A DNA stretch of 64,000 bases from Pseudohongiella sp. O18 (GTDB lineage: Bacteria; Pseudomonadota; Gammaproteobacteria; Pseudomonadales; Pseudohongiellaceae), in assembly GCF_021729085.1 (NCBI RefSeq), contig NZ_JAJSAR010000001.1, positions 1,550,001 through 1,614,000 of the forward strand, written 5' to 3'. Positions 1 to 28,865 of this stretch are shown here, in pieces. Within the stretch, counting starts at the first letter, position 1; every line of letters begins with the position of its first letter. The position numbers were made by a program, and so were the translations under genes. A model generated the notes under the pieces. The model had not been told where the DNA came from. It did not search any database and was given only the letters and a program-made list of their open reading frames with translations.

Positions 1-1476
1 GTTGAAGAGAGTATTGAGCAGTCGGTCGTAATGGGTTTTGTAAGCGGTTCCAGTGCCAACTGGTTCTCTCTGCAGGGTGGTCCTGTTTCATTTGCAGCCG
101 GTGGTGAATGGCGCGAAGAGAAAAGCTCACAGTCCTTCGACAGCTACGATCAGGGCATTATCCAGGTCAGCGGTGTAACGCCGCAGGGCACCAGCTTCAG
201 TCCGGGAGACTGGGTAGGTGACGTCAGTGCCGCAAAGAGCCTGGGCAGCTCACCCGGTAACCGGCTGCTGAATACCAGTGCCAAGTATGATGTATGGGAT
301 ATGTTTGTGGAAGCAGAACTGCCCATTCTGGCCGGTCTGCCCCTGGCAGAGACACTGACAGTTGATGCGGCTTTCCGTCGTGCTGACTATTCGACCTTTG
401 GTAGCAACGATACTTACAGTGTTGGCGGTGTCTGGGCGCCCGTCATGGACTTCCGTATCCGCGCCAATTACAGCGAAGCGGTACGGGTACCTAACCTGTT
501 CGAACTGTATTCGCCAGAGCAGGGACAAAGCTTCCGTCCCAATGATCCCTGTGATGCATCGCAGATTGCCAGTGGCCCGAATCCGGCCCTGCGACAGGCT
601 AACTGTGTGGCCGATCTGACCGCCAATGGTGTACAGCAGTCAAAAATCTTCGATGCCAACGGGAACTACATTTTCGTAGACCCGCTGTCAGCCGGATTCC
701 CGGGTGTCGTCGGGGGTAACCCAAACCTGAAGCCGGAAATTGCTACCACGGAGACGGTTGGTTTTGTATTCCAGCCGCGATTCCTGGAAGGCTTCACGAT
801 GAGCATGGATTACTGGAACATCGAAATTGAGGAGGCGATTGCCGAGATTTCTTCTCAGAACATTGTGAACAGCTGCTACGACGCGGCATCAATCAACAAC
901 CCGTTCTGTGAATTGATTCAGCGTAACAGCACTTCAACATCAGCACAGTCCGGCGGTTTTGTCTTCCTTCGTCAAACCCAGCTGAACTTTGGTGAAGCGT
1001 TGGCAGAAGGTGTTGACTTGAACCTGTCATACCGCTTTCAGCTGGCTGACTACAACATCTCCTTGAGCACTAACGTGACCAAGCAGCTGAAGCTTGACTT
1101 CGTCGAGCCCACCAACCCGGGCGAAGAAGCTGTCGTTGACGAAGACCTGTTGGAGATGCGTTCGCCAGAATATGCTGGACAGTTGTCTGCCACCGTTGGT
1201 CGCGACAACTGGAGTATCAGTCTGCGATCACAGTATCTGAGCGAGATGGCGCTGACAGGCCCAATTGAGACTGCAGTCCAGAACTACGGTGAAGGCATTT
1301 TCACTGACGAGTTCTACTCACACAACCTGTCGGGTAACTACCAGTTCAATGATACCGTGCGTTTCTATGGTGGTATCAGCAACATTACCGATGAAAAACC
1401 GTTCATAACTGAACGTGCCTATCCAGTGAGCCCGGTTGGCCGCTCCTACTTCCTGGGTATTAACGTCGCACTCTGA
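1..1476 (+). CDS. TonB-dependent outer-membrane receptor, C-terminal part (5' end outside window)
   Basis: The frame is open from base 1, so the gene begins upstream and only the last 491 codons are seen. The protein has the alternating aromatic/polar pattern of a TonB-dependent receptor beta-barrel. Family hallmarks are visible: a VRVPNLFELYSP-type segment near residue 162, an NPNLKPEIATTETVGF segment near 240, and a C-terminal strand ending in YFLGINVAL. The plug domain and TonB box are missing because they lie outside the window. Such receptors import scarce substrates across the outer membrane using TonB/ExbBD energy. It precedes the exported ureohydrolase genes on the same strand, so a guanidino compound or a peptide carrying one is a reasonable guess for its ligand. 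That is inference from position only. Confidence 0.9.
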   Translation, partial: VEESIEQSVVMGFVSGSSANWFSLQGGPVSFAAGGEWREEKSSQSFDSYDQGIIQVSGVTPQGTSFSPGDWVGDVSAAKSLGSSPGNRLLNTSAKYDVWDMFVEAELPILAGLPLAETLTVDAAFRRADYSTFGSNDTYSVGGVWAPVMDFRIRANYSEAVRVPNLFELYSPEQGQSFRPNDPCDASQIASGPNPALRQANCVADLTANGVQQSKIFDANGNYIFVDPLSAGFPGVVGGNPNLKPEIATTETVGFVFQPRFLEGFTMSMDYWNIEIEEAIAEISSQNIVNSCYDAASINNPFCELIQRNSTSTSAQSGGFVFLRQTQLNFGEALAEGVDLNLSYRFQLADYNISLSTNVTKQLKLDFVEPTNPGEEAVVDEDLLEMRSPEYAGQLSATVGRDNWSISLRSQYLSEMALTGPIETAVQNYGEGIFTDEFYSHNLSGNYQFNDTVRFYGGISNITDEKPFITERAYPVSPVGRSYFLGINVAL

Positions 1477-1493
1477 TAGAGCCTCTCCTGGTG

Positions 1494-1554
1494 CTACTGC
1501 CCGCCGCTGTCAACTCTCCTGTTTATTGGTGAGTTGGCTGAGGCGGGCAAGTAG
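1494..1554 (+). terminator. Long stem-loop after the TonB receptor gene
   Basis: A 12-base arm (1494-1505) pairs with 1542-1554 with one bulged base. An inner 8-base arm GTCAACTC pairs with GAGTTGGC through one G-U pair. Only three U follow, so it may be a weak intrinsic terminator or an attenuating or mRNA-stabilising hairpin between the receptor and the ureohydrolase operon. Confidence 0.5.
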
Positions 1555-1610
1555 TTTCCGGCTTACCAGCCTCAGCGCAGTCGGCTGCGGATATAAAGCA
1601 AGGAAAAAAG

Positions 1611-3080
1611 ATGACAACAAAAAACAATCAAACAAATATTGGCAGGCACATGCGCCTGTTACTCCAGGTAACTCTCAGCAGCGCACTTCTGTTGGGCCAG
1701 TTTGCCACGGCACAGACAGAAGAAGAGTCTGATCATCCCGAGCTGGTAGAGTTCCCCGCCTCGCTGGACAGTCGCCTGGGTCTGCTTAGCGACGAGGAAC
1801 TCGAGTTTCTCCGCACCCCCCGAAATACTCGCTCCTACGCCGAAGATCTTGATCAGCTAGTAGAGCAGATCGAAAAACGTTCTGCAGACGAGGTCAAGGC
1901 TTATGTTGAGGCCATGATGTGGGTGCGGGATCAGCGTGGTTTTCAGGAAGGTCAGGATCTGGACCATATTCCCTTGAATACGGATACACCAGAATTCAAT
2001 GCCTGGAAAGTCAGGCGTCCCCGCAGTTTTGACCCAGAACGTGAACCAGGCCCCATCAGCCTCGGGCGCTACATGCGTGGTAACGGAGGTATTCCGACAT
2101 TCGCTGGTGCGCCTGTTGCACTAACGCCAGAAGATCTTATCGCCGGTGAAGTAGACGTGGCCTTTGTGGGTGCGCCGCTAAATATGGGATCCGGTTGGCG
2201 CGGCGCGCAGCACGGACCACTGGCGCTGCGAACGATGGGTCGTATGAGTGGCAATGACCAGTACACACAGGTTAACGCGGGATCGGTGTTGAACATCGTC
2301 GATTACGGAGACATTGCCATCGATAACGACAGCACCGAGCGCAGCATGGAACATGTACGTGAAGTGGTGCGGGAAATTGTTGAGACCGGTGCCATTCCAT
2401 TCATTATTGGTGGTGACCATTCTCTGGAGTATCCCAACGTGGCAGCACTTGTGGATGTCTTTGGTGTCGGCAATCTGGGCGTTATTCACTTTGATGCGCA
2501 TTACGATGTCGGCCGGGATCGTGCCCACCTGATTGACCACGGGGCACCCATTTATCGATTGCTGAATGAAGGACTCATTACTGGCGCTGACTATATACAG
2601 GTTGGACTGCGTGCGAATAGTCCAAATGAAAGCATTTTCCGCTGGATGCGCGAAGAAGGTTTCAAGTACCACACTATGGCCGAAGTGGAAAAGTATGGAT
2701 GGGACTATGTACTGGAGCGCGTACTGGCAGAAGCCAAGGGTGACGGACGCAAACTCTATATCTCATTCGATGTTGACGTACTGGATCCTTCCTATACCTC
2801 GGCAACCGGAACACCGGTGTCTGGCGGAATTAAACCACGAGAGGCGATACCTATCGTGCGTCGCCTTTGTGCGGAATCCAATGTGGTGGGGTTCGACCTG
2901 GTTGAAGTCGCACCCGAGCTGGATCCGACCTACGTTACAACCCTTCACAGTGCTGCTATTGCCAAAGCCTGCCTGACCGGCGTGGCGATGCGACGACTTG
3001 AATTGACAGAACCACATTATCTTAACCCTGTATCGCTGGATCACGCCCAGGACGATTACCACGAGGAGAATCAACAATGA
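1611..3080 (+). CDS. Exported ureohydrolase (agmatinase/arginase family), catalytic copy 1
   Basis: A 489-residue ureohydrolase-fold enzyme of the family that hydrolyses guanidino compounds to urea plus an amine. A signal peptide (residues 1 to about 35, hydrophobic core then FATA before Gln) predicts export. An acidic extension of roughly 130 residues precedes the catalytic core (about 180-465). All six binuclear-metal ligands are present: His270 in GGDHS, Asp295, His297 and Asp299 in DAHYD, and Asp387 and Asp389 in SFDVDVLDP. Cytoplasmic agmatinases are usually about 300-320 residues without a signal, so length and location are both unusual. The start has AAGGA eight bases upstream. Its stop overlaps the next start by four bases. 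Close to the third copy (4574). The substrate (agmatine, guanidine, methylguanidine, guanidinobutyrate or other) cannot be read from the sequence. Confidence 0.88.
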   Translation: MTTKNNQTNIGRHMRLLLQVTLSSALLLGQFATAQTEEESDHPELVEFPASLDSRLGLLSDEELEFLRTPRNTRSYAEDLDQLVEQIEKRSADEVKAYVEAMMWVRDQRGFQEGQDLDHIPLNTDTPEFNAWKVRRPRSFDPEREPGPISLGRYMRGNGGIPTFAGAPVALTPEDLIAGEVDVAFVGAPLNMGSGWRGAQHGPLALRTMGRMSGNDQYTQVNAGSVLNIVDYGDIAIDNDSTERSMEHVREVVREIVETGAIPFIIGGDHSLEYPNVAALVDVFGVGNLGVIHFDAHYDVGRDRAHLIDHGAPIYRLLNEGLITGADYIQVGLRANSPNESIFRWMREEGFKYHTMAEVEKYGWDYVLERVLAEAKGDGRKLYISFDVDVLDPSYTSATGTPVSGGIKPREAIPIVRRLCAESNVVGFDLVEVAPELDPTYVTTLHSAAIAKACLTGVAMRRLELTEPHYLNPVSLDHAQDDYHEENQQ

Positions 3081-4519
3081 AGTGCTCAAAAATGAAGTAC
3101 GTGGCGATGGTCTCTACAAGTATGTGTCTGTTCCTTGGAGCCTGTGCCAGCACAACTTCCAGCTCCAGTTCGGTGATGTTGTCATCGTCGGAGCCGACGC
3201 CCGACGCGGTGGCGATGCCGGAAAGTGTGACCGATAAACTGGCGCTTTTGACACCCGAACAGCGCAGCTTTTTACGCGGGACCGAACCGCTGCGGATTGT
3301 CGCGTCTCGCGAGAAACTGATGCAGGAGCTGGACAGCCGCACGCCAGAGCAAATTGCACTTTATGTGTCCGATATGATGCAGGCGCTTGATGAATTTGCC
3401 TACGACCCCGAGCGCGACATGGGGCAGATTCCACTTAACCCTGAAGCAAGCGGATTCAACAGCTGGAAGATTGTTCGTCCTGAAGCCTTGTGGGAGCGAC
3501 GCCGTACTCCGGGTCCCTTCAGTGTCTCGCGTTATATTCACCAGTGGGGTGGTATTCCCACTTTTGCTGGTGCGCCAGTCGCTATTACGCCTGCAGACCT
3601 GGTTGCTGGCAAAGTTGATATTGCCATCTCCGGTATTCCGCAAAGTATGAGCAGTGGCTCACGCGATGCGCGCAACGGTCCCGAAACACTGCGCGCGATG
3701 AGTGGCATAGCCGACTCCAACGTGCATGCCCTGATTGATCCTATGGCAGTGCTCAATATTGTCGATTATGGTGACTTTAACGTCGACCGCATGAGTGTGG
3801 AGCGCAGCATTGGTCATATCACCGAGCAGGTCACACTTCTGGCTGAGACAGGTGCTGTCCCGTTCCTGGTTGGCGGTGACCATTCCGTGATGTATCCGAC
3901 GGTGAAGGCTGTCAAGACTGCCATGGGCGATGAGGAACTGACTGTTGTTCATCTCGGTGCGCACTACAACGCCGAGCCGACTCGCGCACACCGCCTGTCA
4001 GATCGTGATGCTGTCTATCGTCTGATGGACGAACAGATTATCAGTGGTGAAAACCTGATTCAGGTGGGGCTGCGCGGACCGCAACCCACGCGCGAAGCCT
4101 TTATGTGGATGCGAGAGCAAGGTGTCAAATATCACACCATGGCGGAAATCGAGCTTCGCGGCTGGGACTCGGTCATGAATCGTGTCATAGACGAGGCAAA
4201 AGACTCTGGCAATCCAGTTTACATTTCATTTGATGTCAGCATATTTGATCCCTCAGCAGTTTCTGGCATTGGTCGCGCAGTTCCTGGTGGTCTGACGGTG
4301 CGCGAACTTCAGCCTTTGCTGCGCCGTTTGTGCGCGGAAACTCAGATCGCCGGATTTGAACTCATGGACCTGGCCCCGATGCTGGACTTCAGCTATGTCA
4401 GCGCCATGAATGCCAATGCCATGTTGAACGCCTGTCTGACGGGTGTGGCGATGCGAAAAAGTGGGCTGACCGAGGAAAACTACCTGGATCCAATAGCGGT
4501 GGATCATGGTCAGGACTGA
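3077..4519 (+). CDS. Ureohydrolase-family lipoprotein with degenerate metal site (probable pseudoenzyme)
   Basis: A 480-residue paralogue of its two neighbours, translationally coupled to the first (ATGA overlap). The N-terminus has a lipobox LGAC with Cys23, followed by a Ser/Thr-rich linker, so it should be a lipoprotein. Ala at +2 favours the outer membrane. Three of the six metal ligands are replaced: the DAHYD motif is GAHYN (Gly294, Asn298) and the DVD motif is DVS (Ser388). His269, His296 and Asp386 remain. The full ureohydrolase length and fold signature (GGDHS, IPTFAGAP, HTMAEIE) are kept without frameshift, so it is a maintained protein rather than a decaying gene. A role as a scaffold, a membrane-tethering partner or a regulatory subunit of the catalytic copies is inferred. 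Hydrolysis with a single altered metal site is an alternative. Confidence 0.85.
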   Translation: MKCSKMKYVAMVSTSMCLFLGACASTTSSSSSVMLSSSEPTPDAVAMPESVTDKLALLTPEQRSFLRGTEPLRIVASREKLMQELDSRTPEQIALYVSDMMQALDEFAYDPERDMGQIPLNPEASGFNSWKIVRPEALWERRRTPGPFSVSRYIHQWGGIPTFAGAPVAITPADLVAGKVDIAISGIPQSMSSGSRDARNGPETLRAMSGIADSNVHALIDPMAVLNIVDYGDFNVDRMSVERSIGHITEQVTLLAETGAVPFLVGGDHSVMYPTVKAVKTAMGDEELTVVHLGAHYNAEPTRAHRLSDRDAVYRLMDEQIISGENLIQVGLRGPQPTREAFMWMREQGVKYHTMAEIELRGWDSVMNRVIDEAKDSGNPVYISFDVSIFDPSAVSGIGRAVPGGLTVRELQPLLRRLCAETQIAGFELMDLAPMLDFSYVSAMNANAMLNACLTGVAMRKSGLTEENYLDPIAVDHGQD

Positions 4520-4573
4520 TTGCAATTACAGGAAGAATCGCCAAACGTGTTTCAACATTGACAGGTATTCAGT

Positions 4574-6061
4574 ATGAACTTTGAATTAACAAAAACGCGT
4601 TTTTCCTGTCGGACCATGCTGCTGTCGGCACTATGTCTGTCCGCTTTGCTTTCATGGCAGTCAGGCCATGCACAGTCTTCAGAGGAAGCCGAGGAAGAGC
4701 CGGAGTCGATTGAGTTTCCCAGTAATCTCGCCGACCGACTGGCGCCGCTGACTGAGGAAGAGATGGCTTTTCTGTCGGATCCGTCGATGACCCGTTCTTA
4801 TGCGGAGACTCCGGAGGAGCTGTTTGAAGCGCTGGAAAAACGCAGCCCGGATGAAGTGAAGGCCTACGTTCAGGCAATGATGTGGGTTCGGGAACAGCGC
4901 CCCTTTCAGGAAGGTGTGGATGAGGCGTTTATTCCTTTGAATACTGACTCACCCGATTTCAATGCCTGGACAGTCAGACGTCCCCGCAGTTTCGACCCTG
5001 AGCGTGAGGATGGTCCCATCAGTCTGGGCCGTTACATGGGGGGTAATGGTGGCATTCCAACCTTTGCCGGCGCCCCGGTAGCCCTGACGCCAGAGGATCT
5101 GGTCGCGGGTGATGTGGACATCGCCATCGTGGGTGCACCACTGAACATGGGATCTGGTTGGCGTGACGCCGACCATGGACCATTGGCCCTGCGCCTGCGC
5201 GGCGGCATGGCCGGTAACGATCAATATACCCAGGTCAATGCCAGTTCCGTGCTGAATATCGTCGACTATGGCGATATTGCCATCGACAACGACAGTACCG
5301 AGCGCAGCATGCAGCATGTGCGCGAAGTGGTCAGAGAAATTGCCAGTACCGGCGCCATTCCGTTCATCATTGGTGGTGACCACTCCCTGGAATACCCCAA
5401 CGTTGCGGCCATGGTGGATGTTTATGGCAAGGGAAACGTCGGAGTGATCCATTTTGATGCACACTACGACGTTGGCCGCGACAGTCCTCACTATATCTCA
5501 CACGGTCAGCCTATCTATCGACTGCTGCGTGAGGATCTGATCACCGGTGCGGACTACATTCAGGTGGGCCTTAGATCGGGCAGCCCAAATGAGCGCATCT
5601 ACCGCTGGATGCGTGAAGAGGGCTTTAAATACCACTCTATGGCTGAGGTTGAGCGTTATGGCTGGGACTACGTCCTGGAGCGTGTGCTGGCTGAAGCCAA
5701 AGGTGATGGCCGCTATCTATATATTTCCTTCGATGTGGATGTGCTCGATCCCTCCTATATCGCCGGTACTGGCACGCCAGTTGCAGGAGGTATGACACCG
5801 CGTGAGTCGATACCGATCATCCGTCGCCTGTGTGCGGAAGACCAGGTAATCGGTTTCGATCTGGTTGAAGTGGCCCCCGCACTTGACCCGGCCTACACAA
5901 CGGCACTGCACAGCGCAGCCATTGTAAAGGCCTGTCTGACGGGAATTGCGATGCGGGCAGAGGGTATTGACGAGCCTCATTACCTGAACCCGGTATCCCT
6001 TGACCACGCCCAGGATGACTATCACGCCAGGAACGCGCCCGATGAATCTGCCGAGCCTTAA
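4574..6061 (+). CDS. Exported ureohydrolase (agmatinase/arginase family), catalytic copy 2
   Basis: A 495-residue protein strongly similar to the first copy along its full length. It has a signal peptide (residues 1 to about 34, ending SGHA before Gln), an acidic linker, the same N-terminal extension and a complete metal site: His270, Asp295, His297, Asp299, Asp387 and Asp389. The two catalytic copies differ mainly in the signal and linker, which points to duplication, while the middle lipoprotein copy is far more diverged. It follows that copy after 54 bases and lies 27 bases before the parvulin-like gene, so it is probably in the same operon. Expected reaction: guanidino compound plus water to urea plus amine, in the periplasm. 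The metal (Mn2+ or Ni2+) is unknown, and the nickel-related genes nearby make Ni2+ worth considering. Confidence 0.88.
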   Translation: MNFELTKTRFSCRTMLLSALCLSALLSWQSGHAQSSEEAEEEPESIEFPSNLADRLAPLTEEEMAFLSDPSMTRSYAETPEELFEALEKRSPDEVKAYVQAMMWVREQRPFQEGVDEAFIPLNTDSPDFNAWTVRRPRSFDPEREDGPISLGRYMGGNGGIPTFAGAPVALTPEDLVAGDVDIAIVGAPLNMGSGWRDADHGPLALRLRGGMAGNDQYTQVNASSVLNIVDYGDIAIDNDSTERSMQHVREVVREIASTGAIPFIIGGDHSLEYPNVAAMVDVYGKGNVGVIHFDAHYDVGRDSPHYISHGQPIYRLLREDLITGADYIQVGLRSGSPNERIYRWMREEGFKYHSMAEVERYGWDYVLERVLAEAKGDGRYLYISFDVDVLDPSYIAGTGTPVAGGMTPRESIPIIRRLCAEDQVIGFDLVEVAPALDPAYTTALHSAAIVKACLTGIAMRAEGIDEPHYLNPVSLDHAQDDYHARNAPDESAEP

Positions 6062-6088
6062 CAGGGCTCGGTGTGCAGGAGAAACTTG

Positions 6089-6982
6089 ATGTTTGACAGA
6101 CTGTTGAAAGAACCACTGGCCATATTCTGTGTGGCGGCGGCGGGCATATTTGTCGTTGATGCGATCAGAAACGGTGGGGAAACCACGGAGAGTCTGGCGG
6201 AGGCTGACCAGAATGCGGTCAGCACGATTATTGTGAACGAAGCCGTGGTGGACATTCTGCAGGAAGATTTTGAGTGGCTGGAAGGCCGCGAGCCCAACGA
6301 AGAGGAAACCGAACAGATCGTTCAGGAATGGCTGAATGAGGAAATCGTTTTTCGTGAAGCACTGCGTCAGAACATGCATCTGTCCGACGGCAAAATGCGC
6401 GCCCACCTGATTGAGAAAGTCCGCCTGTTGTGGGCTGGGGTACCGAGCACACCCAGCGAAGAAGACCTGCTTGCCTTCTACATGGACAATATTCAGGAGT
6501 ACTACAGTGAAACCCGCGTCAGTTTTGATCAGGTCTTTTATTCAGAGCAACCTGAGAATGCTGACGAGTTGTTGGAGCGACTGCGTTCTGGTGAAGACAT
6601 CGAAGGCGAGCGTTACTGGCTGGGAGACAATATGTCGGACTATGCTGCCAGTATTCTGCGTTCCAGTTTTGGTGGAGAATTCTTTACTGCACTTCTGGAG
6701 GCGCCCCTGGAAACCTGGATGGGCCCCTATCAGTCACCACGTGGTTACCATTACGTCAAGGTCAGCGGTGTGCAGCAACCTCAGCCAATAGCCTATGAAG
6801 CGGTTCGTGACAGACTGCTGCAGGACTGGTCAGATGCAATGCTTTTCAATCGGGTGGCTGAGCGCACCGAGCAGATTCGTGATGAGTTTGATGTCGTCTA
6901 TGACTCCAGCGGGGAAGTCAGTTCCAGCGTAGAGGCATTGCTGGCAAGCGCCAGAAATCTGCGCGAAGAAGAGGGGCACTGA
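6089..6982 (+). CDS. Membrane-anchored parvulin-like peptidyl-prolyl isomerase
   Basis: 297 residues from the ATG at 6089, which has AGGAG seven bases upstream. An N-terminal hydrophobic segment (about residues 8-24) probably anchors it in the inner membrane. An acidic helical SurA/PpiD-like N-domain follows, then a parvulin-like region (about 130-235) with the GPYQSPRGYHYVKV segment typical of the last strand of rotamase domains. The middle of the rotamase region is shortened, so isomerase activity is uncertain and it may act only as a folding chaperone. It lies between three exported ureohydrolases and a HupE/UreJ gene and ends one base into the HupE start. A role in maturation of the exported proteins is inferred from this position. 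Confidence 0.75.
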   Translation: MFDRLLKEPLAIFCVAAAGIFVVDAIRNGGETTESLAEADQNAVSTIIVNEAVVDILQEDFEWLEGREPNEEETEQIVQEWLNEEIVFREALRQNMHLSDGKMRAHLIEKVRLLWAGVPSTPSEEDLLAFYMDNIQEYYSETRVSFDQVFYSEQPENADELLERLRSGEDIEGERYWLGDNMSDYAASILRSSFGGEFFTALLEAPLETWMGPYQSPRGYHYVKVSGVQQPQPIAYEAVRDRLLQDWSDAMLFNRVAERTEQIRDEFDVVYDSSGEVSSSVEALLASARNLREEEGH

Positions 6983-18586: not shown

Positions 18587-18629
18587 GCGCCAAGCCGATG
18601 CTTACCCAAAACAAATCAGGAGACTGCTA

Positions 18630-19331
18630 ATGAGTAATGAATCTGCACGTCAGACACTGCGCGTGGGTGTCGGAGGGCCAGTAGGCTCCGGCAAGACTGC
18701 TCTGCTCAGGGCGCTTTGCACTCTGATGCGCGAGCACTGGCAGATAGGCGTTGTGACCAATGATATTTACACCCGCGAGGACGCTGATTTTCTGACGCGC
18801 CATGAAGCACTGGATGCCGACCGGATCCTCGGTGTAGAAACTGGTGGTTGCCCGCATACCGCAATTCGCGAAGATGCATCGATGAACCTCGCTGCCATTG
18901 ATGAGCTCTTGCGCCGGCACCCGCAGTTAGAAGTCATATTCGTGGAGAGCGGTGGCGACAATCTAAGTGCAACATTCAGCCCGGAGTTGTCCGATCTGAC
19001 ACTCTATGTCATTGATGTTTCCGCTGGTGACAAGATTCCCCGCAAAGGTGGTCCCGGTATCACCCGGTCTGACCTGCTGATCATCAACAAGACAGACCTG
19101 GCCCCGTTGGTAGGTGCATCTCTGGATGTGATGAATCGGGACTCACTAAAAATGCGAGGTGAAAGACCTTTTGTGTTCAGCAATCTGAAAGCCTGGGAAG
19201 GCCTGGATCGTATCATCGATTTTATCGTTGAGCAGGGCATGCTGGCGCCACGCTTGTCGGGGGCTGAGCTTGTCAGTCGTGCGGGTGCCAGAGCGGCAGA
19301 TGTCGCCGAAGAAACCCGGGCCAGCCAGTGA
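18630..19331 (+). CDS. ureG: Urease accessory GTPase UreG
   Basis: 233 residues from the ATG at 18630, which has AGGAG just upstream. Motifs: P-loop [11 protein letters not shown], the [15 protein letters not shown] metal site with the conserved Cys-Pro-His, [13 protein letters not shown], and NKTDLAP as the guanine-specificity motif. It supplies energy and nickel for urease activation. The C-terminal tail after about residue 205 is a little longer than usual. Confidence 0.97.
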
Positions 19332-19657: not shown

Positions 19658-19685
19658 TGCTACGAAAATCAGTTAATTCGCTATT

Positions 19686-20624: not shown

Positions 20625-23600
20625 TTTTCAGTAGCACTCATCTGTTCGTCCGGTGTGGGTTTTGGCTTTTTTGTGGCGGTAAAGCTGCGTGCAATCTGCG
20701 CAAACTGCATTCCATCCAACAACTTTTTGAGAGATTTTCTGCTGGTTTCGTTTATCAGTTCATGCCGCGCCAGCTCGTCCAGTTTGTTCTGAACGCCGCG
20801 CTTGTAGCCCAGCTCTGCGCAGGTGATCAACTCCCTGACCAGTTCGTGATCAGCGATGGTTGTCAGATCGGTAGGAGGCTCAGTTTTCTCCAGCAGTGAG
20901 TTGTCAGCGCCGGGCCTGTCGACTATCCAGTCGATAGATAACAGATCCCCGATGGTTTCCAGCAAGCGCTGGTGATTGATTGGTTTGACCAGGTAGGCAT
21001 TATGGTGGGCCGTATCCTGAACGCTACGGTGATGCTCCTGGGCGTCGGCAGAAATCATGATCGCCGGTTGGCGGTGGCCCATTTCGCGCAACGTTCGGAT
21101 CAACTCCAGACCACTCAGTCCGGGCATGCTGACATCCAGCAGCAGAATATCAGGGCGGGCCTCTTCGATGGTTTCAAGACAGTCATGGGCGTCAGGTGAC
21201 TCCAGTACCGTGAATCCCAGCGGAGGCAGTAACTCTGACATCAGTCCGCGATGGATCGGATCGTCGTCCACAACCATGACAGTGAGTCGTGGTCCGCGAT
21301 AGCCTTTAATCTGATGTGGTACTGGGGTCTGTACTGAATGCTCGGTGACCCGGGACATCATGAGGCTGACGGTAAAGCGGCTTCCTTTTCCGGGTGTGCT
21401 GACGATGTCCAGCTCCCCACCCATGATTTCCGATAACAGGCGGACAATGGTCAGACCCAGACCGGTACCCGGCACATTAGGTACGTCAGGCCCGCGGACC
21501 CGCTCGAAGGGGTCAAGGATGCGTTTGAGGTCTTTTTCGCTGATGCCAATACCAGTGTCGACTACCGAGAACTCGGCGACCTGATTGCGATAGCGGACAT
21601 GGAACTCAACGCTGCCACGAGGTGTGTACTTAATAGCGTTGGACAGCAGATTCACCAGGATCTGATAAAGCCTTTTTGAGTCGGTGGTAACGACTTCCGG
21701 GAGCTTGTTGTGGATATGGCAGCTGAAGTCAATCTGTTTGTTTGCCGCCATGTCGCGGAACATCTGCACCATCTGGTCAATGAACTCAGGCAGCTTGACG
21801 TGATTTCGATAGATCTCCAGGCGGCCGGCCTCGATTTTTGAAATATCGAGCAGACCTTCGATAAGTCCCGCCAGGTGATCGCCGCTGCGTTTGATGATCT
21901 GCACCGCATCCCGGTTACGCTCGCTCATGTCTTCGCGCTGAATCAAAAGCTGTGCGTATCCGAGAATGGCCTGCAATGGGGTGCGCAATTCATGACTGAT
22001 GCCGGACAGATATCGGCTTTTGGCATTGTTCGCGCGTTCGGCCAGGTCCTTGGCGCGCTGCAGTTGTTCATCGGTTCGACTGTGGGCTTCAATCTCTGCC
22101 AGCAGTCTATTGGTCTGAATGGTCGACTCCGCCTGGGCGACGACCCGGCTTTCACTCGCCAGCAGATAAAGCCAGCAGATAACGCCAAGAATGATCATCA
22201 TTACAAAGAACAGCATGGTCAGCGCCTGATTCAGAATCAGGGCGCTGACCGGATCGGTGCTCAACTGGAAATAAACCAGTGATAACAGTGCAGCACTGAT
22301 CAGATTAGCAATACTGAAAAGTGTCATGAATCGCACCAGGCGTCTGCCCACAGGACGGAACAGGGCCGCAGGCAGCCAATGCTGCAACCATTCTTCAAGT
22401 TGACTGCTGAGCGTTGCTTCGGGTTTGCAGGCGTCCATGCAACGTGAGTCGAGTGAGCAACACAGCGAGCAGATTGCGCCTTCATAGGCAGGGCAATAGG
22501 CAAGGTCGGGTCGCTCGAAATGATTCTCACATATGCAGCACTGCGCTTTTTCTTCCGGGCCGGTGGAGACCATGATGTGGTCAATTTCGGGGGATGTTCT
22601 GGCCAGGTAAAAGCGACCTTTAGTAAGCAGTGCGATAAGTGGAACGCAGACAAAGCACAATCCCAGACTGATAAAGTGAGCCAGGTGCCTGGGTGTATCA
22701 CCGAACATGCCGAGATAGCAGAGTACGCCGACAATCGATGCAATCAGGACGGAGACGACACCGACCGGATTGATGTCATACAAATGAGCTCGTTTGAATT
22801 CAATGTAGGAAGGGCTGAGTTTCAGCGGTTTATTGATCATCAGATCGGCCGACAGGCAGCCCAGCCAGCTCAGGGTAACTATCGAGAACAAACCCAGAAT
22901 TGATTCCAGTGCCCGGTAGAGTCCAAGCTCCATCAACAACAGTGCGATTGCCACATTAAAAACCAGCCAGACCACGCGGCCGGGGTGGCTATGTGTCAAT
23001 CTCGAAAAGAAGTTGGACCAGGCGATGGAGCCAGCATAGGCATTAGTTACGTTAATCTTCATCTGCGAGACAATGACCATCAACCCTGCCAGCACCAGCG
23101 AAAACGTTGGCGAACTGCTGACGTAGTTGAAGACCATCTGATACATCCAGGTCGGGTCAATAGCCCTTTCGACCGACGCGCCCTCAGAGACTGCAATCCA
23201 GGCAAGAAAGGATCCCAGCAGCATTTTAATAAGACCGATAAGAATCCAGCAGGGACCAGCCAGCGACAACCAGAACCACCAGCGAAAACGATTGGCATGG
23301 GTTTTTTGCGGCATGAATCTCAGGTAGTCCACCTGCTCGCCAATCTGGGCGACCATGGCGAACAGTATGGCCGTTGATGCACCGAACAGCGCAAGGTCAA
23401 AACCGGGCAGGCCGCCGGTGGTGCCGTCTGGCATGTAGGCTGCCCAATCTTCGACCCTGGAGAACTCAAACCACAAAACAAGCACCAAAGCAGTGCACTG
23501 TAGCGTCAGCCAGAACGTTTGTGTGCCGATCTGGAAGCGTGAGATGAGTGTAATACCATGTGTCACGATGGGTATGACTGCAACCGCGCAGATGATGTAG

Positions 23601-24052
23601 CCCAGCCATAATGGAATGCCCAGCATAGCGTTTAACGCTGCCGCAAGAATGGCTCCTTCAATCGCGAAGAATATGAAAGTGAATGAAGCATAGATCAAGG
23701 ATGTGATGGTTGAACCCAGATAGCCGAAACCTGCGCCGCGTGTCAGCAGGTCAATGTCCAGGCCATAGCGCGCCGCGTAGTAACAGATTGGAAACCCAGT
23801 TGTGATAATGACCAGCGCGACCGCCAGCATGGCGGCTACTGCATTCACCACCCCGTAATTCAAAGTGATGGTTGCAGAAATCGCTTCCAGTGCCAGGAAG
23901 GCGGTGGCGCCTATCGCCGTCATCGCTACCGTGCTGATGCTGAATCGGCGCGCTCCTATCGCCGTGAATCGCAGCGCAAAGTCTTCCAGTGTTTCGTTGC
24001 CGACCCACAGGTTGTACTTTCGTCGCACACGAAAAATCTTTTGAGTTGGCAT
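20621..24052 (-). CDS. NCS1-type permease fused to hybrid sensor histidine kinase
   Basis: 1143 residues. Domains in order: an NCS1 (cytosine/purine/allantoin/hydantoin-type) permease of about 12 helices (about 20-490; start motif NLWVGNETLEDFALRF); a Cys-rich segment (about 504-545) with CCIC, CSLCC and CMDAC clusters that could bind zinc or iron-sulphur; a second membrane region (about 574-634); HisKA with the phospho-His in GISHELRTPLQ (about 686); HATPase with NLLSNAIKYTPRG and PGTGLGLTIV; a receiver (about 924-1040) with LLLDVSMPG; and a helical tail of about 100 residues. The transporter part probably acts as ligand sensor, possibly also importer. It is coupled to the LuxR-type regulator. 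NCS1 substrates are nitrogen-rich (allantoin, hydantoin, uracil), which fits nitrogen scavenging. Confidence 0.92.
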   Translation of the reverse strand: MPTQKIFRVRRKYNLWVGNETLEDFALRFTAIGARRFSISTVAMTAIGATAFLALEAISATITLNYGVVNAVAAMLAVALVIITTGFPICYYAARYGLDIDLLTRGAGFGYLGSTITSLIYASFTFIFFAIEGAILAAALNAMLGIPLWLGYIICAVAVIPIVTHGITLISRFQIGTQTFWLTLQCTALVLVLWFEFSRVEDWAAYMPDGTTGGLPGFDLALFGASTAILFAMVAQIGEQVDYLRFMPQKTHANRFRWWFWLSLAGPCWILIGLIKMLLGSFLAWIAVSEGASVERAIDPTWMYQMVFNYVSSSPTFSLVLAGLMVIVSQMKINVTNAYAGSIAWSNFFSRLTHSHPGRVVWLVFNVAIALLLMELGLYRALESILGLFSIVTLSWLGCLSADLMINKPLKLSPSYIEFKRAHLYDINPVGVVSVLIASIVGVLCYLGMFGDTPRHLAHFISLGLCFVCVPLIALLTKGRFYLARTSPEIDHIMVSTGPEEKAQCCICENHFERPDLAYCPAYEGAICSLCCSLDSRCMDACKPEATLSSQLEEWLQHWLPAALFRPVGRRLVRFMTLFSIANLISAALLSLVYFQLSTDPVSALILNQALTMLFFVMMIILGVICWLYLLASESRVVAQAESTIQTNRLLAEIEAHSRTDEQLQRAKDLAERANNAKSRYLSGISHELRTPLQAILGYAQLLIQREDMSERNRDAVQIIKRSGDHLAGLIEGLLDISKIEAGRLEIYRNHVKLPEFIDQMVQMFRDMAANKQIDFSCHIHNKLPEVVTTDSKRLYQILVNLLSNAIKYTPRGSVEFHVRYRNQVAEFSVVDTGIGISEKDLKRILDPFERVRGPDVPNVPGTGLGLTIVRLLSEIMGGELDIVSTPGKGSRFTVSLMMSRVTEHSVQTPVPHQIKGYRGPRLTVMVVDDDPIHRGLMSELLPPLGFTVLESPDAHDCLETIEEARPDILLLDVSMPGLSGLELIRTLREMGHRQPAIMISADAQEHHRSVQDTAHHNAYLVKPINHQRLLETIGDLLSIDWIVDRPGADNSLLEKTEPPTDLTTIADHELVRELITCAELGYKRGVQNKLDELARHELINETSRKSLKKLLDGMQFAQIARSFTATKKPKPTPDEQMSATEK

Positions 24053-24267: not shown

Positions 24268-24319
24268 TATTAATAGATTCCGTCGTCAATAACTATCCTG
24301 AAATAAATTGGAGCATCAG

Positions 24320-25453
24320 ATGTTGCAACGCACACTCTGGTCCCTTGCGCTCTTGCTGAGTTGCGGGGCAGTACACGCGCAGTGGGACACAATCGTAGGT
24401 GACGTGCTAACCGTGGAGGAGCCTGACGTTCGCTGGGTAGCCGTTCGCGGAGGCAGTTCTGCCTACCTGGTCGATACCGATGAGGGTGTCGTTAAAGGTA
24501 CTCTGCCACTCTCAAGATTTTCGCCAACGCTGGTTTCGCATGCCAGTCAGGGCCGAATCTACTCATACGGAAGCTTTTACACCCGTGATACCTATGGCGA
24601 GCGTACTGACGTCGTTTTGATCTTTGACATCGAGACAGCCTCACCTGTCGGCGAAGTGGAAATTCCCGCGCGGGCCGCTGGTATCGGCCATCGAGGCATG
24701 ATCAGCGTCATAAATGATGCGTTCGTGGGCGTATTTAACCTGACGCCGGCGCAATCAGTCAGTCTGGTTGACACCCGCACCAATGCATTTGTCAACGAGA
24801 TATCTCTGGCCGGCTGCTCGTCAATGTATCCGATCGAAGCAGGGTTCATGTCTATCTGCGGCGACGGTACGGTTCAGTATATTGAGGTCTCCAATGCCGG
24901 TCAGGAAGTGTCCCGGGTAAGAAGCGAGCCATTTTTTGATCTGACGGTTGACCCTGTCTACGACTATGCCTCTCCGGCGTCTGACGGCTGGATGATCATG
25001 TCGTTTGATGGCTACCTGCGCAAGGCGTATCTGGATGGCGGCGAAGTAGTCGTTACTGAATCGTTCAACATCAATCCGGAAAACGACGGTGAAGCCGACA
25101 TCAACGGTGTAGTCAGAGAGCCGGACGACAACTGGCGCATTGGTGGACGTCAACCTTTTGCCTATCACGATGAAGCTGCCCTGCTGGCGACCGTCATGCA
25201 TCAGGGTGGTGGCCAGGAGACGTTTGAGAAGGCCGGTACCGAAATCTGGGCTTTTAACATGAAGACCGGAAATCGCGGCTATCGACTTAAACTGGATGAA
25301 GGTGAGACTGCCAGTGCCGTCATGTTTACCCCTGACGCCGAGCCACTTATGCTGATCCAGACCAATGAAGGCTTGCGTGTGCATGATCCGGTAACGGGTC
25401 GTCATCTGCGCACTGTCAGCAGTGTCAGCGGCTCAATCTTCAACCTGTTCTGA
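24320..25453 (+). CDS. mauB: TTQ amine dehydrogenase heavy (beta-propeller) subunit
   Basis: 377 residues from the ATG at 24320, which has GGAG six bases upstream. A signal peptide ends at about residue 20 (GAVHAQ). The rest is the repeated beta-strand pattern of a seven-bladed propeller, as in methylamine or aromatic amine dehydrogenase heavy chains, with family segments SHASQGRIYSYGSFYTRDTYGERTD-like near 80 and a C-terminal GRHLRTVSSVSG. It carries no cofactor itself; it clamps the TTQ light chain. It heads the B-E-D-A gene order shared by known mau and aau clusters. Whether the enzyme prefers methylamine, aromatic amines or polyamines cannot be decided. Confidence 0.9.
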   Translation: MLQRTLWSLALLLSCGAVHAQWDTIVGDVLTVEEPDVRWVAVRGGSSAYLVDTDEGVVKGTLPLSRFSPTLVSHASQGRIYSYGSFYTRDTYGERTDVVLIFDIETASPVGEVEIPARAAGIGHRGMISVINDAFVGVFNLTPAQSVSLVDTRTNAFVNEISLAGCSSMYPIEAGFMSICGDGTVQYIEVSNAGQEVSRVRSEPFFDLTVDPVYDYASPASDGWMIMSFDGYLRKAYLDGGEVVVTESFNINPENDGEADINGVVREPDDNWRIGGRQPFAYHDEAALLATVMHQGGGQETFEKAGTEIWAFNMKTGNRGYRLKLDEGETASAVMFTPDAEPLMLIQTNEGLRVHDPVTGRHLRTVSSVSGSIFNLF

Positions 25454-25466
25454 GGAGGTTCACGAA

Positions 25467-25985
25467 ATGGATCCTTTGCTGACACTGGTTGTTGCGACAT
25501 CGATAGGTTTGCTGTTCTTCACTGCTGCTCGACACAAAATGAACAGTGGTCGTCGCTTCGAAGCGCAACTGGCAGCTTATCGCCTTTTGCCGGAGTCCAT
25601 GCTGCGACCGGTTGCCAAAGCATTGCCCTGGCTCGAGCTGACAGTGGCGGTCGCACTCCTGGTTCCGGTCACCCGCATACCTGCTGCGCTGGTAGCGATC
25701 GCACTGCTGGTGATGTATGCCACAGCCATGGCTGTCAATATCAAGCGTGGCCGCAGCGAAATCGACTGTGGATGTGGCGATCAGCCGCAGAGTCTGTCCC
25801 GCTGGCTGTTGCTGCGTAATGCGGTACTGGCTGTCGCCACTGCTGCGCTGATTGCGCCTGTGGCAGAGCGGGCGCTGGGCGTCGCTGACATACTGTTCAT
25901 GGTGATACTGACGGCGACCTTATCGTTGGCCTATGTCATGTGCGAACAGCTGACACGAAATTTTTCCGGATTGAGTAAGTCATAA
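25467..25985 (+). CDS. mauE: MauE-like membrane protein for amine dehydrogenase maturation
   Basis: 172 residues from the ATG at 25467, 13 bases after the heavy-chain stop, with a GAGGAGG site. Four or five hydrophobic helices are predicted (DoxX/MauE type), with the conserved CGCG cysteine pair in EIDCGCGDQPQ (about residue 97). MauE is needed, with MauD, for export and disulfide formation of the light chain. Confidence 0.9.
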   Translation: MDPLLTLVVATSIGLLFFTAARHKMNSGRRFEAQLAAYRLLPESMLRPVAKALPWLELTVAVALLVPVTRIPAALVAIALLVMYATAMAVNIKRGRSEIDCGCGDQPQSLSRWLLLRNAVLAVATAALIAPVAERALGVADILFMVILTATLSLAYVMCEQLTRNFSGLSKS

Positions 25986-26019
25986 TTGGCAGGTTCTGGC
26001 CTGCACGAGGAGTCATGTA

Positions 26020-26646
26020 ATGGGTAGTGCTTCTATGGTGGTGTTAAGCGTACTTTGTTTTGTTGTACTGGTGCTGATACTGGCGGTCATTGCGCTGGCC
26101 AGGCAGATCGGCATTCTGCATACACGTTTGGCACCTGCCGGTGCGTTGATGACAACAGCCGGCCCTAAGGTGGGAGACAAGGCACCTGCTTTGTCAATCC
26201 CGGATATTAATGGCAAGCCGGTCGCCATTGGTGCAGGTCCATCAGAAGTGGGCATGGTGAAAAAGCCGCAGCTGATTCTGTTTGTCTCGCCAAGCTGTCC
26301 AATCTGTAAGGACCTGGTGCCAGTAGCTAAAAGTATGGCACGTGCTGAAAAGCTGTCGCTGGTTTTTGGTAGCGATGGCGGTCAACTGAACAAGCATCAG
26401 AACTATGTAGCAAAGATGGGGCTGGAAGACTATCCCTATGTTGTCTCACTCGAGTTGGGCATGAAGTTTGAAGTCGGCAAATTGCCGTACGCAGTCCTCA
26501 TCGATCAGCACGGCGTGCTGCGTTCGAAAGGTCTGGTCAACAGTCGGGAGCATCTGGAGTCCCTGGTGACATCAATGCAGAGTGGATATGAATCAATACA
26601 GGACTACCTGGTCAAATCAGGCAGTCTGCAGGAGCAGGCATCATGA
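26020..26646 (+). CDS. mauD: MauD-like thioredoxin-fold disulfide protein
   Basis: 208 residues. An N-terminal membrane anchor (about 5-25), then a thioredoxin/redoxin domain with the active site SPSCPICK (CPIC, residues about 93-96) and the cis-Pro region in LPYAVLID. It is the partner of MauE in forming the six disulfides of the TTQ light chain. It has a GAGGAG ribosome site and overlaps the light-chain start by four bases. Confidence 0.93.
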   Translation: MGSASMVVLSVLCFVVLVLILAVIALARQIGILHTRLAPAGALMTTAGPKVGDKAPALSIPDINGKPVAIGAGPSEVGMVKKPQLILFVSPSCPICKDLVPVAKSMARAEKLSLVFGSDGGQLNKHQNYVAKMGLEDYPYVVSLELGMKFEVGKLPYAVLIDQHGVLRSKGLVNSREHLESLVTSMQSGYESIQDYLVKSGSLQEQAS

Positions 26647-27242
26647 GTGATAGACAGGCGCTGATCGCACAGTTGTACAAAGATCTGGATGCAAAAACTA
26701 CAGGGGCTATCCGTTTCCTGGCCGGTAGAACCTCGCGACGTTCCTTCCTGGGTCGCATTGGGGTGTTCATGGCAGGTATGGGTGCCTTGCCGGTGTTGCC
26801 GGTGGCCCGTGCTTCGGCACAGACACAGTTCCCACCAGCCGGTAATTCCGGCCCGGTGAATGGCGTTGCAGACATTGAAGAGATGGGTGATCCACAAGAG
26901 TGTGAGTACTGGCGCTACTGCGCGTTCAGTGGTTCGCTGTGTAGCTGCTGTGGTGGTTCACTGACACAATGTCCTCCAGGGTCACAGACCGCAACAATCG
27001 CCTGGGTTGGCTCCTGCCATAACCCGACCGATGGTCGCGACTACCTGATTTCCTACAACGACTGCTGCGGCAAGGGTAGTTGTGGTAGCGGCTGTGGCTG
27101 TTCGCGCTCGGAAGGCGACCGTCCGGTTTACTTCCCATCGAAGTCCAATAATGTGTTGTGGTGCTTTGGTTCTACGAGCCATGCCTATCACTGCACACTC
27201 GCGCTGGTCATCGGTCATGCTGATGCGAATTCACTGCCTTGA
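26643..27242 (+). CDS. mauA: TTQ amine dehydrogenase light (catalytic) subunit
   Basis: 199 residues. A long signal region carries a twin-arginine motif (TSRRSFLG, Arg32-Arg33), as is usual for this family. The mature part is Cys-rich with the family blocks YWRYCAFSGSLCSCCGG, CHNPTDGRDYLISYNDCCG and WCFGSTSHAYHC. Trp121 (AWVGSC) and Trp173 (NVLWCF) align with the two residues that form tryptophan tryptophylquinone. The catalytic Asp region (DGRDYL) is also present. From memory, some blocks look more like aromatic amine dehydrogenase (CHNP.DG.DYLISYNDCCGK) and others more like methylamine dehydrogenase (LWCFG), so substrate class is open. It oxidises a primary amine to aldehyde and ammonia in the periplasm. 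Confidence 0.93.
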   Translation: MSDRQALIAQLYKDLDAKTTGAIRFLAGRTSRRSFLGRIGVFMAGMGALPVLPVARASAQTQFPPAGNSGPVNGVADIEEMGDPQECEYWRYCAFSGSLCSCCGGSLTQCPPGSQTATIAWVGSCHNPTDGRDYLISYNDCCGKGSCGSGCGCSRSEGDRPVYFPSKSNNVLWCFGSTSHAYHCTLALVIGHADANSLP

Positions 27243-27705
27243 TCGTTCGCCGCAGCCTGGCTATCAATCCAGGCTGCGGTTCAGCCACAAAAGCAGGATT
27301 CGGGCGGCAGCCGTCACCCTTTTGCTAAGCCTGTTGCCAATGGGTAAGGCTTTGGCGCAGCATGGACAGGGCCCGCAATATATGTATCTGCTGCATTGTG
27401 GTGGATGTCATATTGAAAATGGCTCGGGCATGCCGCCAGCCATTCCGGATCTGCGGATAACCATGCCAAAGCTGGCCAGTCATGACGAGGGTCGTGCCTA
27501 TATGGTTCAGGTGCCGGGTGCTTCACAGGCACCAGTCACAGATGCCCAGCTTACCGAAATTATGAACTGGATGTTGAGGACATTTGCCGAAGGGACATTC
27601 AGGCCCTACACAGAGTCTGAAGTCACCCAGCATCGCGCCAATAAAGTGCTGGATATCCTGGCATTGCGCAGACAATTGATTGCGGAGAATCTGGAGGCGC
27701 CATGA
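27223..27705 (+). CDS. Small exported c-type cytochrome
   Basis: 160 residues from the ATG at 27223, which lies inside the end of the light-chain gene; an ATG at 27217 is equally possible and neither has a clear ribosome site. A signal peptide with a basic n-region and Leu-rich core ends at about KALA before Gln. One heme-binding motif CGGCH is followed by a Met-containing segment (GSGMPPAIPDL) that may give the axial ligand. No amicyanin or azurin gene is nearby, so this cytochrome is the likely electron acceptor of the amine dehydrogenase. It overlaps the mauG-like start by four bases. Confidence 0.8.
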   Translation: MRIHCLDRSPQPGYQSRLRFSHKSRIRAAAVTLLLSLLPMGKALAQHGQGPQYMYLLHCGGCHIENGSGMPPAIPDLRITMPKLASHDEGRAYMVQVPGASQAPVTDAQLTEIMNWMLRTFAEGTFRPYTESEVTQHRANKVLDILALRRQLIAENLEAP

Positions 27706-28865
27706 TCTTCAGGTGTCAAGTGATGTTGGGTCTTCTGTTGGCGAACTTCAGTTCGGTCGCAATCGCAAACGATGATTCCACCTCTTTGGCCTGGCTAGGA
27801 CAGGCCTTTTTTTTTGACACCAATTTATCAAGAGAGCGCACTTTGGCATGTGCCACATGCCACGATCCCAATCGCGCGTTCACTGATGCCCGTGACAACG
27901 GCGTATTTTCAGCAGCGTCGCTAGGTAGCGATGGCATTTCCCTGGGGGATCGTCAGGCCCCGTCACTCGGCTACGTTTCGCTGACACCTTCGTTCTCGCA
28001 GGATGAAGAGGGCCTTTATCACGGCGGACTGTTCTGGGACGGCCGGGCTGCTGATCTTGCTGAACAGGCACTGATACCGATTTTTGATCCCACTGAGATG
28101 CAGTTGTCCGGTCCGGAACAACTGGCGGATCGCGTTTTGGAGAACCCGGAGTATCAGCGACGTCTAGTATCACTGTTCGGTGAGCAGGTTGTGGCCGATA
28201 CGCAACTCCTTAGCGAAGCTGTCGGCCAGGCACTGGCGGCCTTTCAGCAAGGCGAACAGTTTCAGCCTTTTGATTCGAAATACGATGAATATCTCCAGGG
28301 AAACTATCAGCCCACGCTGCAGGAGTCGCTTGGCATGGCTCTGTTCTTCACAGAGGGATTCACCAATTGCAATGAGTGTCATCAGCTTCAGGACGTGCCT
28401 GGACGCAGGCTGGAAACCTTCAGCAACTACGCGTTTGAAAATATCGGTGTGCCAGTGAATCAACGCTTGCGGGCTGCCAACGGCCGTCAGTTCGATGTGG
28501 AGGGAAAACCCTATGTGGACAAAGGGCTGGCGTTCCGGCCTGAGACACCACAGGGCGATACGGATGGTCGATTCAAGGTTCCGAGCCTGCGCAACGTCGC
28601 AGTAACGGGGCCTTATATGCACAACGGTGTGTTCAGCGAACTACGCACGGTTCTGGATTTTTACAACAAGTACAATCGCAGTGGCGGTGACAGCCAGATC
28701 AACCCGGAGACTGACGAGCCCTGGGGTAACGCCGAAGTGCCCGAGACAATTGCTCTGGATAAACTGACAGGGACCATGCCTCTGGAGCCGCGTCACCTGG
28801 ATGCGCTGGAGGCCTTCCTGCGGATGCTGACAGACAAGCGCTATCAGCATCTGCTGGAGGATTGA
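27702..28865 (+). CDS. mauG: MauG-like di-heme enzyme for TTQ biosynthesis
   Basis: 387 residues of the bacterial cytochrome c peroxidase/MauG family. A signal peptide (about 1-22) is followed by two c-heme motifs, CATCH (about residue 50) and CNECH (about 225), and conserved segments GGLFWDGRA and VPSLRNVAVTGPYMHNG. MauG completes TTQ by hydroxylating and cross-linking the two light-chain tryptophans. Placement directly after the light-chain and cytochrome genes supports MauG function over peroxide detoxification. Whether the second heme has the Tyr ligand characteristic of MauG needs an alignment; a Tyr lies in the relevant region (NYAFENIGVP). Confidence 0.88.
   Translation: MIFRCQVMLGLLLANFSSVAIANDDSTSLAWLGQAFFFDTNLSRERTLACATCHDPNRAFTDARDNGVFSAASLGSDGISLGDRQAPSLGYVSLTPSFSQDEEGLYHGGLFWDGRAADLAEQALIPIFDPTEMQLSGPEQLADRVLENPEYQRRLVSLFGEQVVADTQLLSEAVGQALAAFQQGEQFQPFDSKYDEYLQGNYQPTLQESLGMALFFTEGFTNCNECHQLQDVPGRRLETFSNYAFENIGVPVNQRLRAANGRQFDVEGKPYVDKGLAFRPETPQGDTDGRFKVPSLRNVAVTGPYMHNGVFSELRTVLDFYNKYNRSGGDSQINPETDEPWGNAEVPETIALDKLTGTMPLEPRHLDALEAFLRMLTDKRYQHLLED

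Follow-up and report, generated by a model that had tools for sequence, protein, structure and literature searches.

Putative exported ureohydrolases linked to urea import and urease genes in Pseudohongiella sp. O18

Among the described ureohydrolases that resemble the proteins reported here, GbuA and GpuA are single, cytoplasmic enzymes. Ureohydrolase pairs made up of a catalytic protein and a pseudoenzyme have a precedent (PMC11271267, PMC11399263), and nickel is the metal of both guanidinase and metformin hydrolase (PMC11410670, PMC11271267). A search of the open-licence literature, to which most subscription papers do not belong, turned up no account of an exported ureohydrolase in bacteria. 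No exported system is described in the available portions of PMC11271267, PMC11410670, PMC11399263, and PMC13390362, and neither "periplasm" nor "signal peptide" occurs in the main text of PMC11399263. Here, we describe a locus in a stretch of 64,000 nucleotides from the 3.47-Mb genome of Pseudohongiella sp. O18 (contig NZ_JAJSAR010000001.1, positions 1,550,001 to 1,614,000), referred to below as the window, in which genes for three apparently exported Arginase-family proteins (PF00491) precede a urea importer and a urease. Positions are those of the window, on the plus strand unless marked (−).

On balance, we favour the view that the locus serves nitrogen acquisition and has a periplasmic ureohydrolase at its centre, with urea released outside the cytoplasm, imported by Urt, and degraded by urease. 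A TonB-dependent receptor would carry a guanidino compound over the outer membrane, after which two exported catalytic proteins (A), assembled with an exported and possibly membrane-tethered partner (B) as their paired genes suggest, would hydrolyse the guanidino group in the periplasm to yield urea, an activity to which their residues and signal-like N-termini point. UrtABCDE would import the urea, and urease with UreDEFG, possibly aided by a HupE/UreJ protein for nickel, would convert it into ammonia and CO2. A kinase and a LuxR-type regulator adjoining ureG would probably control the block, and a tryptophan tryptophylquinone (TTQ) amine dehydrogenase cluster may profit from the neighbourhood without being needed by the system. 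In this scheme, the families, the residues, the conserved gene order, the duplication, and the differing locations of the amine dehydrogenase genes are seen in the sequences, and we infer export, the heteromer, periplasmic urea release, the receptor ligand, and regulation. A more specific form, which we consider somewhat less probable than not, is a dedicated TonB-fed route for a guanidino substrate that is too large, or present in too small amounts, to be supplied through porins, with an exported heteromer, a membrane-tethered pseudoenzyme, and urea passing via Urt to urease.

The three ureohydrolase genes lie at 1611..3080 (A, copy 1; PF00491 E = 2.4e-72), 3077..4519 (B; E = 4.8e-57), and 4574..6061 (A, copy 2; E = 3.1e-73). 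With residues numbered as in the protein of 4574..6061 and their roles presumed from arginase work, every checked position is intact in the first and third proteins: all six ligands to the metals, the catalytic His, and the Glu on the guanidinium side. The protein encoded between them has lost part of this set, carrying G, N, D, S, and D at the positions of D295, D299, H310, D389, and E432. Both A proteins thus hold the two-metal ligand set H, D, H, D, D, D of the arginase superfamily, a pattern consistent with that given in PMC11271267, and B is a family member by sequence without the full set of metal ligands. The original prediction of two exported, apparently active ureohydrolases is therefore upheld at the level of the catalytic residues that were checked.

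The same division was found beyond the window. H270, D295, H297, D299, H310, D387, D389, and E432 were kept in 40/40 full-length paired A rows and in 7/7 full-length rows of an unpaired ureohydrolase, while in all 34 full-length B rows, between two and five of the six ligands were missing and Asp replaced the catalytic His 310. Six truncated rows were set aside for this count, which precedes the fetching of 13 further unpaired loci and in which some rows represent an identical or nearly identical gene from two loci. Within the window genome, the six Arginase-family matches comprised the three proteins of the locus, two more encoded as a pair around 502-505 kb, and a relative encoded at 1642 kb that has no signal-like N-terminus, and an alignment of the five exported ureohydrolases separated A from B.

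Export was assessed with a crude hydropathy test on mechanically assigned start codons. An N-terminal signal above the threshold was obtained for 17/20 A1, 13/14 B1, 14/20 A2, 18/20 B2, and 7/7 UH3 rows, as opposed to 0/1 for the cytoplasmic row, and all three ureohydrolases of the window passed. The first A protein has a Sec-type N-terminus ending in ATAQ. A strict lipobox was present in 6/34 B rows and 0/40 A rows; the loosely lipobox-like LGAC of the window's B protein fails this strict pattern. For the second A protein, AlphaFold gave a model (mean predicted local distance difference test score, pLDDT, 79.2) with an arginase core of the arginase fold; ahead of this core, residues 50-108 form a helical piece of mostly good confidence, and residues 110-140 are poorly predicted. 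In a fold comparison, this model was closest to agmatinases and guanidinobutyrase, with metformin hydrolase appearing from rank 32.

The evidence that joins these proteins to urea metabolism comes from the genus sample of 15 genomes, nine of which carry the ureohydrolase array. The importer gene urtA (E <= 1e-100) was found in 9/9 array genomes and 0/6 others, and ureC in 8/9 and 0/6, respectively, counts which, like the other genome comparisons below, ignore kinship. The ureC count was made at strong scores, so that 16 of the 29 genomes matching Urease_alpha (E 1e-5 to 1e-3) were excluded. The array genome without ureC was the 700-contig assembly G028, whose contig ends inside urtA; the contig of G029 likewise ends at urtA. 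In the remaining seven (G000, G022, G020, G024, G026, G027, and G030), the ureohydrolases, urt, and ure were on one contig, and the conserved order was receptor, ureohydrolases, PpiC, HupE, urt, ure, regulator, and kinase. PpiC, HupE/UreJ, urtABCDE, ureDABCEFG, and the kinase and regulator were shown or compatible in all nine. The predicted union of exported ureohydrolases with urea import and urease was thereby supported, and this linkage supports a putative periplasmic release of urea feeding Urt and urease. A second ureC in G026 was located on another contig (G026:C4:1429-1782).

The genome G025, which has neither ureC nor urtA, is a natural loss of the ureohydrolase-urt-ure block as a unit: in this genome (L045, G025:C2:905001-925000), the receptor, a short ureohydrolase remnant, and the kinase and regulator are left, and everything between has been lost. 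This deletion bears on the proposal that the exported ureohydrolases act, for processing or detoxification, on the guanidino groups that peptides or secondary metabolites carry, and that the urea genes only salvage the by-product. Such a role would fit exported pairs that lack conserved neighbours among 21 loci and a family that stands apart from eight solved ureohydrolases in the tree (both described below). However, the link with urt and ure is complete wherever the assemblies allow it to be seen, and it was as a unit that the block was lost in G025, so that we regard this proposal as distinctly improbable.

In the window, the array is followed by a PpiC-type peptidyl-prolyl isomerase (6071..6982, PF13145) and the HupE/UreJ protein, a possible nickel permease (6982..8079, PF13795). 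From the first ureohydrolase through HupE, successive genes overlap or are no more than 54 bases apart, and a gap of 245 bases separates HupE from urtA (8325..9626; TIGR03407, 565.1 bits, cut-off 492.75). The remaining importer genes are urtB (9666..11321; TIGR03409, 429.2 bits over residues 261-548, cut-off 250.3), urtC (11318..12469; PF02653 and position), urtD (12466..13248; ABC_tran and BCA_ABC_TP_C), and urtE (13245..13949; ABC_tran and position), UrtA and UrtB being scored on NCBIfam cut-offs and UrtC, UrtD, and UrtE assigned by Pfam and position. Every junction from urtB through ureD (13946..14824, PF01774) is a 4-base overlap, including that of ureD with urtE. The UrtB protein carries a long N-terminal extension of about 260 residues ahead of its permease domain.

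The urease genes continue with ureA (14949..15251, PF00547), ureB (15261..15617, PF00699), ureC (15632..17341, PF00449 and PF01979), ureE (17353..17931, PF02814 and PF05194), ureF (open frame 17729..18586; PF01730, residues 102-243), and ureG (open frame 18552..19331, PF02492), the real starts of the last two probably lying downstream. UreC carries the motifs that we take to be the metal, lysine, and catalytic ones of urease. An Rfam match to 5_ureB_sRNA (15783-16060, −, 91.8 bits) lies antisense within ureC and may reflect conserved urease coding sequence only, or a genuine antisense RNA.

The TonB-dependent receptor, with plug and barrel Pfam matches, is represented in the window by the 3' part of its gene (1..1476), the start of which lies upstream of position 1; the whole gene encodes 1160 amino acids (L007:15994-19476). 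It was upstream of the array in 9/9 array genomes, G030 showing only its last 3% before the end of the main array contig. The locus L038 (G027:C17) has two tandem TonB receptors ahead of the array, with 53% and 79% identity to that of the window. In the sister genus g8, which has a shorter, unpaired exported ureohydrolase, 20 loci were fetched, and in eight of them, a TonB receptor with 41-44% identity to that of the window over nearly its full length directly adjoins the ureohydrolase. Three of these eight reached 793-861 bits by BLASTP against the window receptor; the best other receptor of the window genome gave about 500 bits, a value summed over pieces and obtained with a different program. 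None of the 20 loci gave urt or ure matches, except for weak UrtE-like ABC proteins (26-27%), and 12 had no adjacent receptor.

The receptor could instead serve, together with HupE/UreJ, for the uptake of nickel for urease and perhaps for a nickel-dependent ureohydrolase, with small guanidino substrates entering via porins. HupE/UreJ precedes urtA in 9/9 array genomes, and the nickel of guanidinase and metformin hydrolase noted at the outset would agree with such a role. On the other hand, the eight sister-genus loci pair a related receptor with a ureohydrolase in stretches without urease genes. A length of 1160 amino acids is also large for a metal receptor, and we therefore consider nickel uptake unlikely as the explanation. 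The TonB receptor hints weakly at a larger ligand, and the TonB link speaks mildly against agmatine and methylguanidine, which should pass porins.

To place the exported proteins, a tree was built from 36 sequences, including eight solved ureohydrolases and the cytoplasmic relative, with MetCa and MetCb left out. The exported ureohydrolases formed a single clade apart from the solved ones and the cytoplasmic relative (100/99); the tree program warned that a long HutG branch was possibly misplaced. The two B kinds were sisters (100/100), the unpaired kind branched outside the paired ureohydrolases (89/84), and support for the A side (A1 + A2) was weaker (90/67). Because the B kinds are sisters and the unpaired kind lies outside the paired ones, the tree points to one duplication that gave rise to A and B before the array and stand-alone types diverged. 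The A and B genes are adjacent in the array, which is mostly A-B-A-B and in the window A-B-A, and as a stand-alone pair, they were adjacent in 21/21 clustered loci.

The stand-alone B-A pair of the window genome (L008:7892-10961, about 502-505 kb) has pel polysaccharide genes on one side and an M20 peptidase/argA-like pair on the other. Woeseiaceae and further gammaproteobacterial assemblies also have such pairs, with no neighbours in common, and among the 21 loci clustered, no conserved neighbourhood emerged, the non-ureohydrolase groups being common to five loci at most. A scan of named genomes returned 21 loci: 17 belonged to the stand-alone type and four to the array type, the latter all within the genus. 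No match was obtained in 368 other sampled genomes of the class at E 1e-120, a stringent limit that remoter exported relatives would escape. No guanidine riboswitch reached the gathering score in the window, L007, L008, or L034, where both matches belonged to other families; one of these, to AaHKsRNA22 in a relative (L034:17048-17134, −, 43.0 bits), was barely over the gathering score.

The LuxR-type response regulator (19686..20624, −; PF00072, PF00196) and the hybrid histidine kinase (20621..24052, −; HisKA, HATPase, receiver) follow ureG in all eight genomes where the site is visible, and they probably control the urea block. The kinase had been described as transporter-like. Its sensor of roughly 500 residues, with a cysteine-rich stretch, is indeed hydrophobic by sequence, but no transporter family among those tested was matched: residues 1-650 gave no Pfam match, NCBIfam and PDB matches were no better than chance, and neither SSF nor NCS1 matched at its position. 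The AlphaFold model of the sensor had a pLDDT of 33.7.

The downstream mau block contains a mauB-like heavy-chain gene (24308..25453), mauE (25422..25985, PF07291, start uncertain), mauD (26020..26646; TIGR02661, 199.7 bits, cut-off 188.6), mauA for the TTQ small subunit with a twin-arginine leader RRSFLG (26643..27242, PF02975), a monohaem c-type cytochrome gene with CGGCH (open frame 27082..27705, probable gene start near 27240; haem motif, sub-cut-off Cytochrom_C E = 0.003), and a gene for a MauG/MbnH-like dihaem protein (27702..28865; PF03150, with TIGR04039 and TIGR03791 under their cut-offs). The gene order resembles what we take to be that of the aau cluster of Alcaligenes. The heavy chain is nearer to aromatic amine dehydrogenase, at 88.5 bits against 59.1 for methylamine dehydrogenase, and scored 68.0 bits on TIGR02658 (methylamine dehydrogenase), under the cut-off of 454.45; the light chain gave 141.5 bits to methylamine and 132.7 to aromatic amine dehydrogenase, chains similar in length. 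A beta-lactamase-family serine hydrolase (28877-30166, −) adjoins the block, and a relative of it is also found near mau in G021.

All the gene groups claimed in the original prediction, namely the ureohydrolases, urt, ure, kinase and regulator, and mau, are present and in order by family matches. The idea of one complete system in a single locus found support for the ureohydrolase-urt-ure part and not for mau, which cannot form one operon with the rest because two opposite-strand genes intervene after ureG, and which is not a conserved part. The co-occurrence proposed for related genomes was likewise seen for the ureohydrolases with urt and ure in the genus, with mau mostly elsewhere. Although ureC and mauA occur together in eight genomes of the genus, the two genes adjoin only in G000 and G022, which are close relatives, and for this reason we doubt a conserved amine branch. 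In G020, mau is about 0.95 Mb from ure, and in G024, G026, G027, G029, and G030, they are on separate contigs, with no ure or urt in the 14-16 kb around mau. The block follows a TonB receptor and a tetratricopeptide repeat (TPR) protein in G020, G026, G030, G021, G033, and the outside genome G047, lies one gene from a TPR protein in G024, and occupies a third location in G027, G029, and G025. The TonB receptor associated with mau elsewhere is a distant relative of the one in the window (31-36% over its main stretch).

In the window genome, that receptor and TPR protein are followed directly by a 222-amino-acid protein whose gene flanks the far side of mau in G021. The place between the TPR protein and the 222-amino-acid protein (L071:9585-11811) is likely the emptied ancestral mau site, as judged from this one comparison, in which genes further out are rearranged. 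The MauB proteins are 50-60% identical between three lineages. Since mau genes diverge evenly between these lineages, relocation is more probable than acquisition from a foreign source, and a recent gain from outside is unlikely. The repeats flanking mau revealed nothing telling. In view of the gene maps and of what is likely a vacated site, we reject mau as a conserved pathway part; the cluster seems to be an independent unit for periplasmic amine oxidation that was brought to this place in a single lineage. The locus is composed of three layers, a ureohydrolase/receptor core, a urt-ure addition, and the mau genes, and not of one conserved unit.

The original prediction had gone further, with the amine from the ureohydrolase oxidised by the adjacent TTQ dehydrogenase and agmatine or methylguanidine as the candidate substrate. 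Besides the adjacency of mau and the urea genes in the window, the best point for such an integrated pathway is the genome-level association of ureohydrolase and mauA. The latter gene occurs in 78/137 family genomes (69 of these without the array) and 12/15 within the genus, where it was found in 9/9 array genomes versus 3/6 others; across the family, it was present in 32/33 genomes with any exported ureohydrolase, a set including G025 (remnant) and G109 (fragment), versus 46/104 without. In the handles G055-G136, taken as the sister genus, the figures were 22/23 versus 41/59 (p 0.017). The distant relationship of the mau-adjoining receptor elsewhere to that of the window also agrees with it. 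Against these stand the adjacency of mauA and ure in only 2/8 genomes, the likely vacated site beside another TonB receptor, a heavy chain closer to the aromatic enzyme, and the presence of mauA without an intact ureohydrolase, at the limit used, in G021, G033, G025 (remnant), and 44 other family genomes. We rate the integrated pathway as distinctly improbable. A dedicated amine route is accordingly not supported, and neither are agmatine and methylguanidine as substrates, in view of the heavy chain, the lack of a guanidine riboswitch in the stretches searched, and the weak hint from the receptor at a larger ligand.

Several observations also weigh against a nitrogen-acquisition locus with periplasmic urea release. 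The release of urea is deduced from the protein family, and the second, unlinked pair in the window genome has no nearby urea genes, so that the enzyme can serve elsewhere. The array with urt and ure was found in one genus only, and five family genomes outside it have ureC (E < 1e-50) without the array; in the four ureC genomes of genus g8, ure is ahead of urt. Because, within the genus, urease is absent wherever the array is absent, inheritance of a single island from a common ancestor could account for the counts with no shared function. Finally, 12/20 g8 loci lack an adjacent receptor (two of these stretches being < 7 kb), and nickel could be what both HupE and the receptor are there for.

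If the favoured reading is true, the guanidino group is attacked before entry into the cytoplasm, which would explain a urea importer downstream of ureohydrolase genes. It would also point to an unrecognised source of organic nitrogen that can be searched for by receptor and enzyme assays. In addition, the locus would offer an older, repeatedly duplicated, pseudoenzyme-bearing ureohydrolase for comparison with metformin hydrolase, and the pairing of a catalytic protein with a pseudoenzyme, as in that enzyme, would apparently have arisen here independently.

Compared with known systems, the A/B pair is similar to the metformin hydrolases MetCaCb/MfmAB/MefH and to DmgH in having adjacent genes with one metal site full and one lost (PMC11271267, PMC11399263), and MetCaCb/DmgH match the fold of the second A model. 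By contrast, the metformin and dimethylguanidine hydrolases are taken as cytoplasmic and come with nickel chaperone genes, whereas the window proteins have signal-like N-termini, are about 120 amino acids longer, and are 21-24% identical to MetCaCb/DmgH in the fold comparison. By sequence, B resembles guanidinase and guanidinobutyrase more than it does MetCb, with phmmer scores of 131.9 bits to GdmH and 66.2 to MetCb; these scores would speak against a place in the MetCa/MetCb clades, although MetCa and MetCb are outside the tree sample. The guanidinases GdmH (7esr, 7oi1) and Nitrospira inopinata 9fek are among the nearest solved sequences, and guanidinase also has an N-terminal extension (PMC11410670). 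However, the GTGW Trp of guanidinases, which is Trp305/Trp313 in PMC11410670 and which we take to be PDB chain position 307 by our own count, is Thr in the aligned A protein. The window enzymes also differ from guanidinases in being apparently exported and paired, with no guanidine riboswitch in the stretches searched.

GbuA is the top PDB sequence match of both A proteins, and the core and fold are common to GbuA/GpuA (3nio, 3nip), but these enzymes have no long N-terminal extension and fall outside the exported clade. The amine dehydrogenase genes share with aau/mau clusters the B-E-D-A order, a TTQ small subunit, and a MauD over its cut-off; they differ in a heavy chain far under the methylamine cut-off and in the absence of mauF and an amicyanin gene among the frames examined at 24308-28865. 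With UrtABCDE-urease operons, the locus shares the full gene set, with UrtA and UrtB over curated cut-offs. Unlike the known operons of this type, it has overlapping urtE and ureD and lies downstream of putatively exported ureohydrolases.

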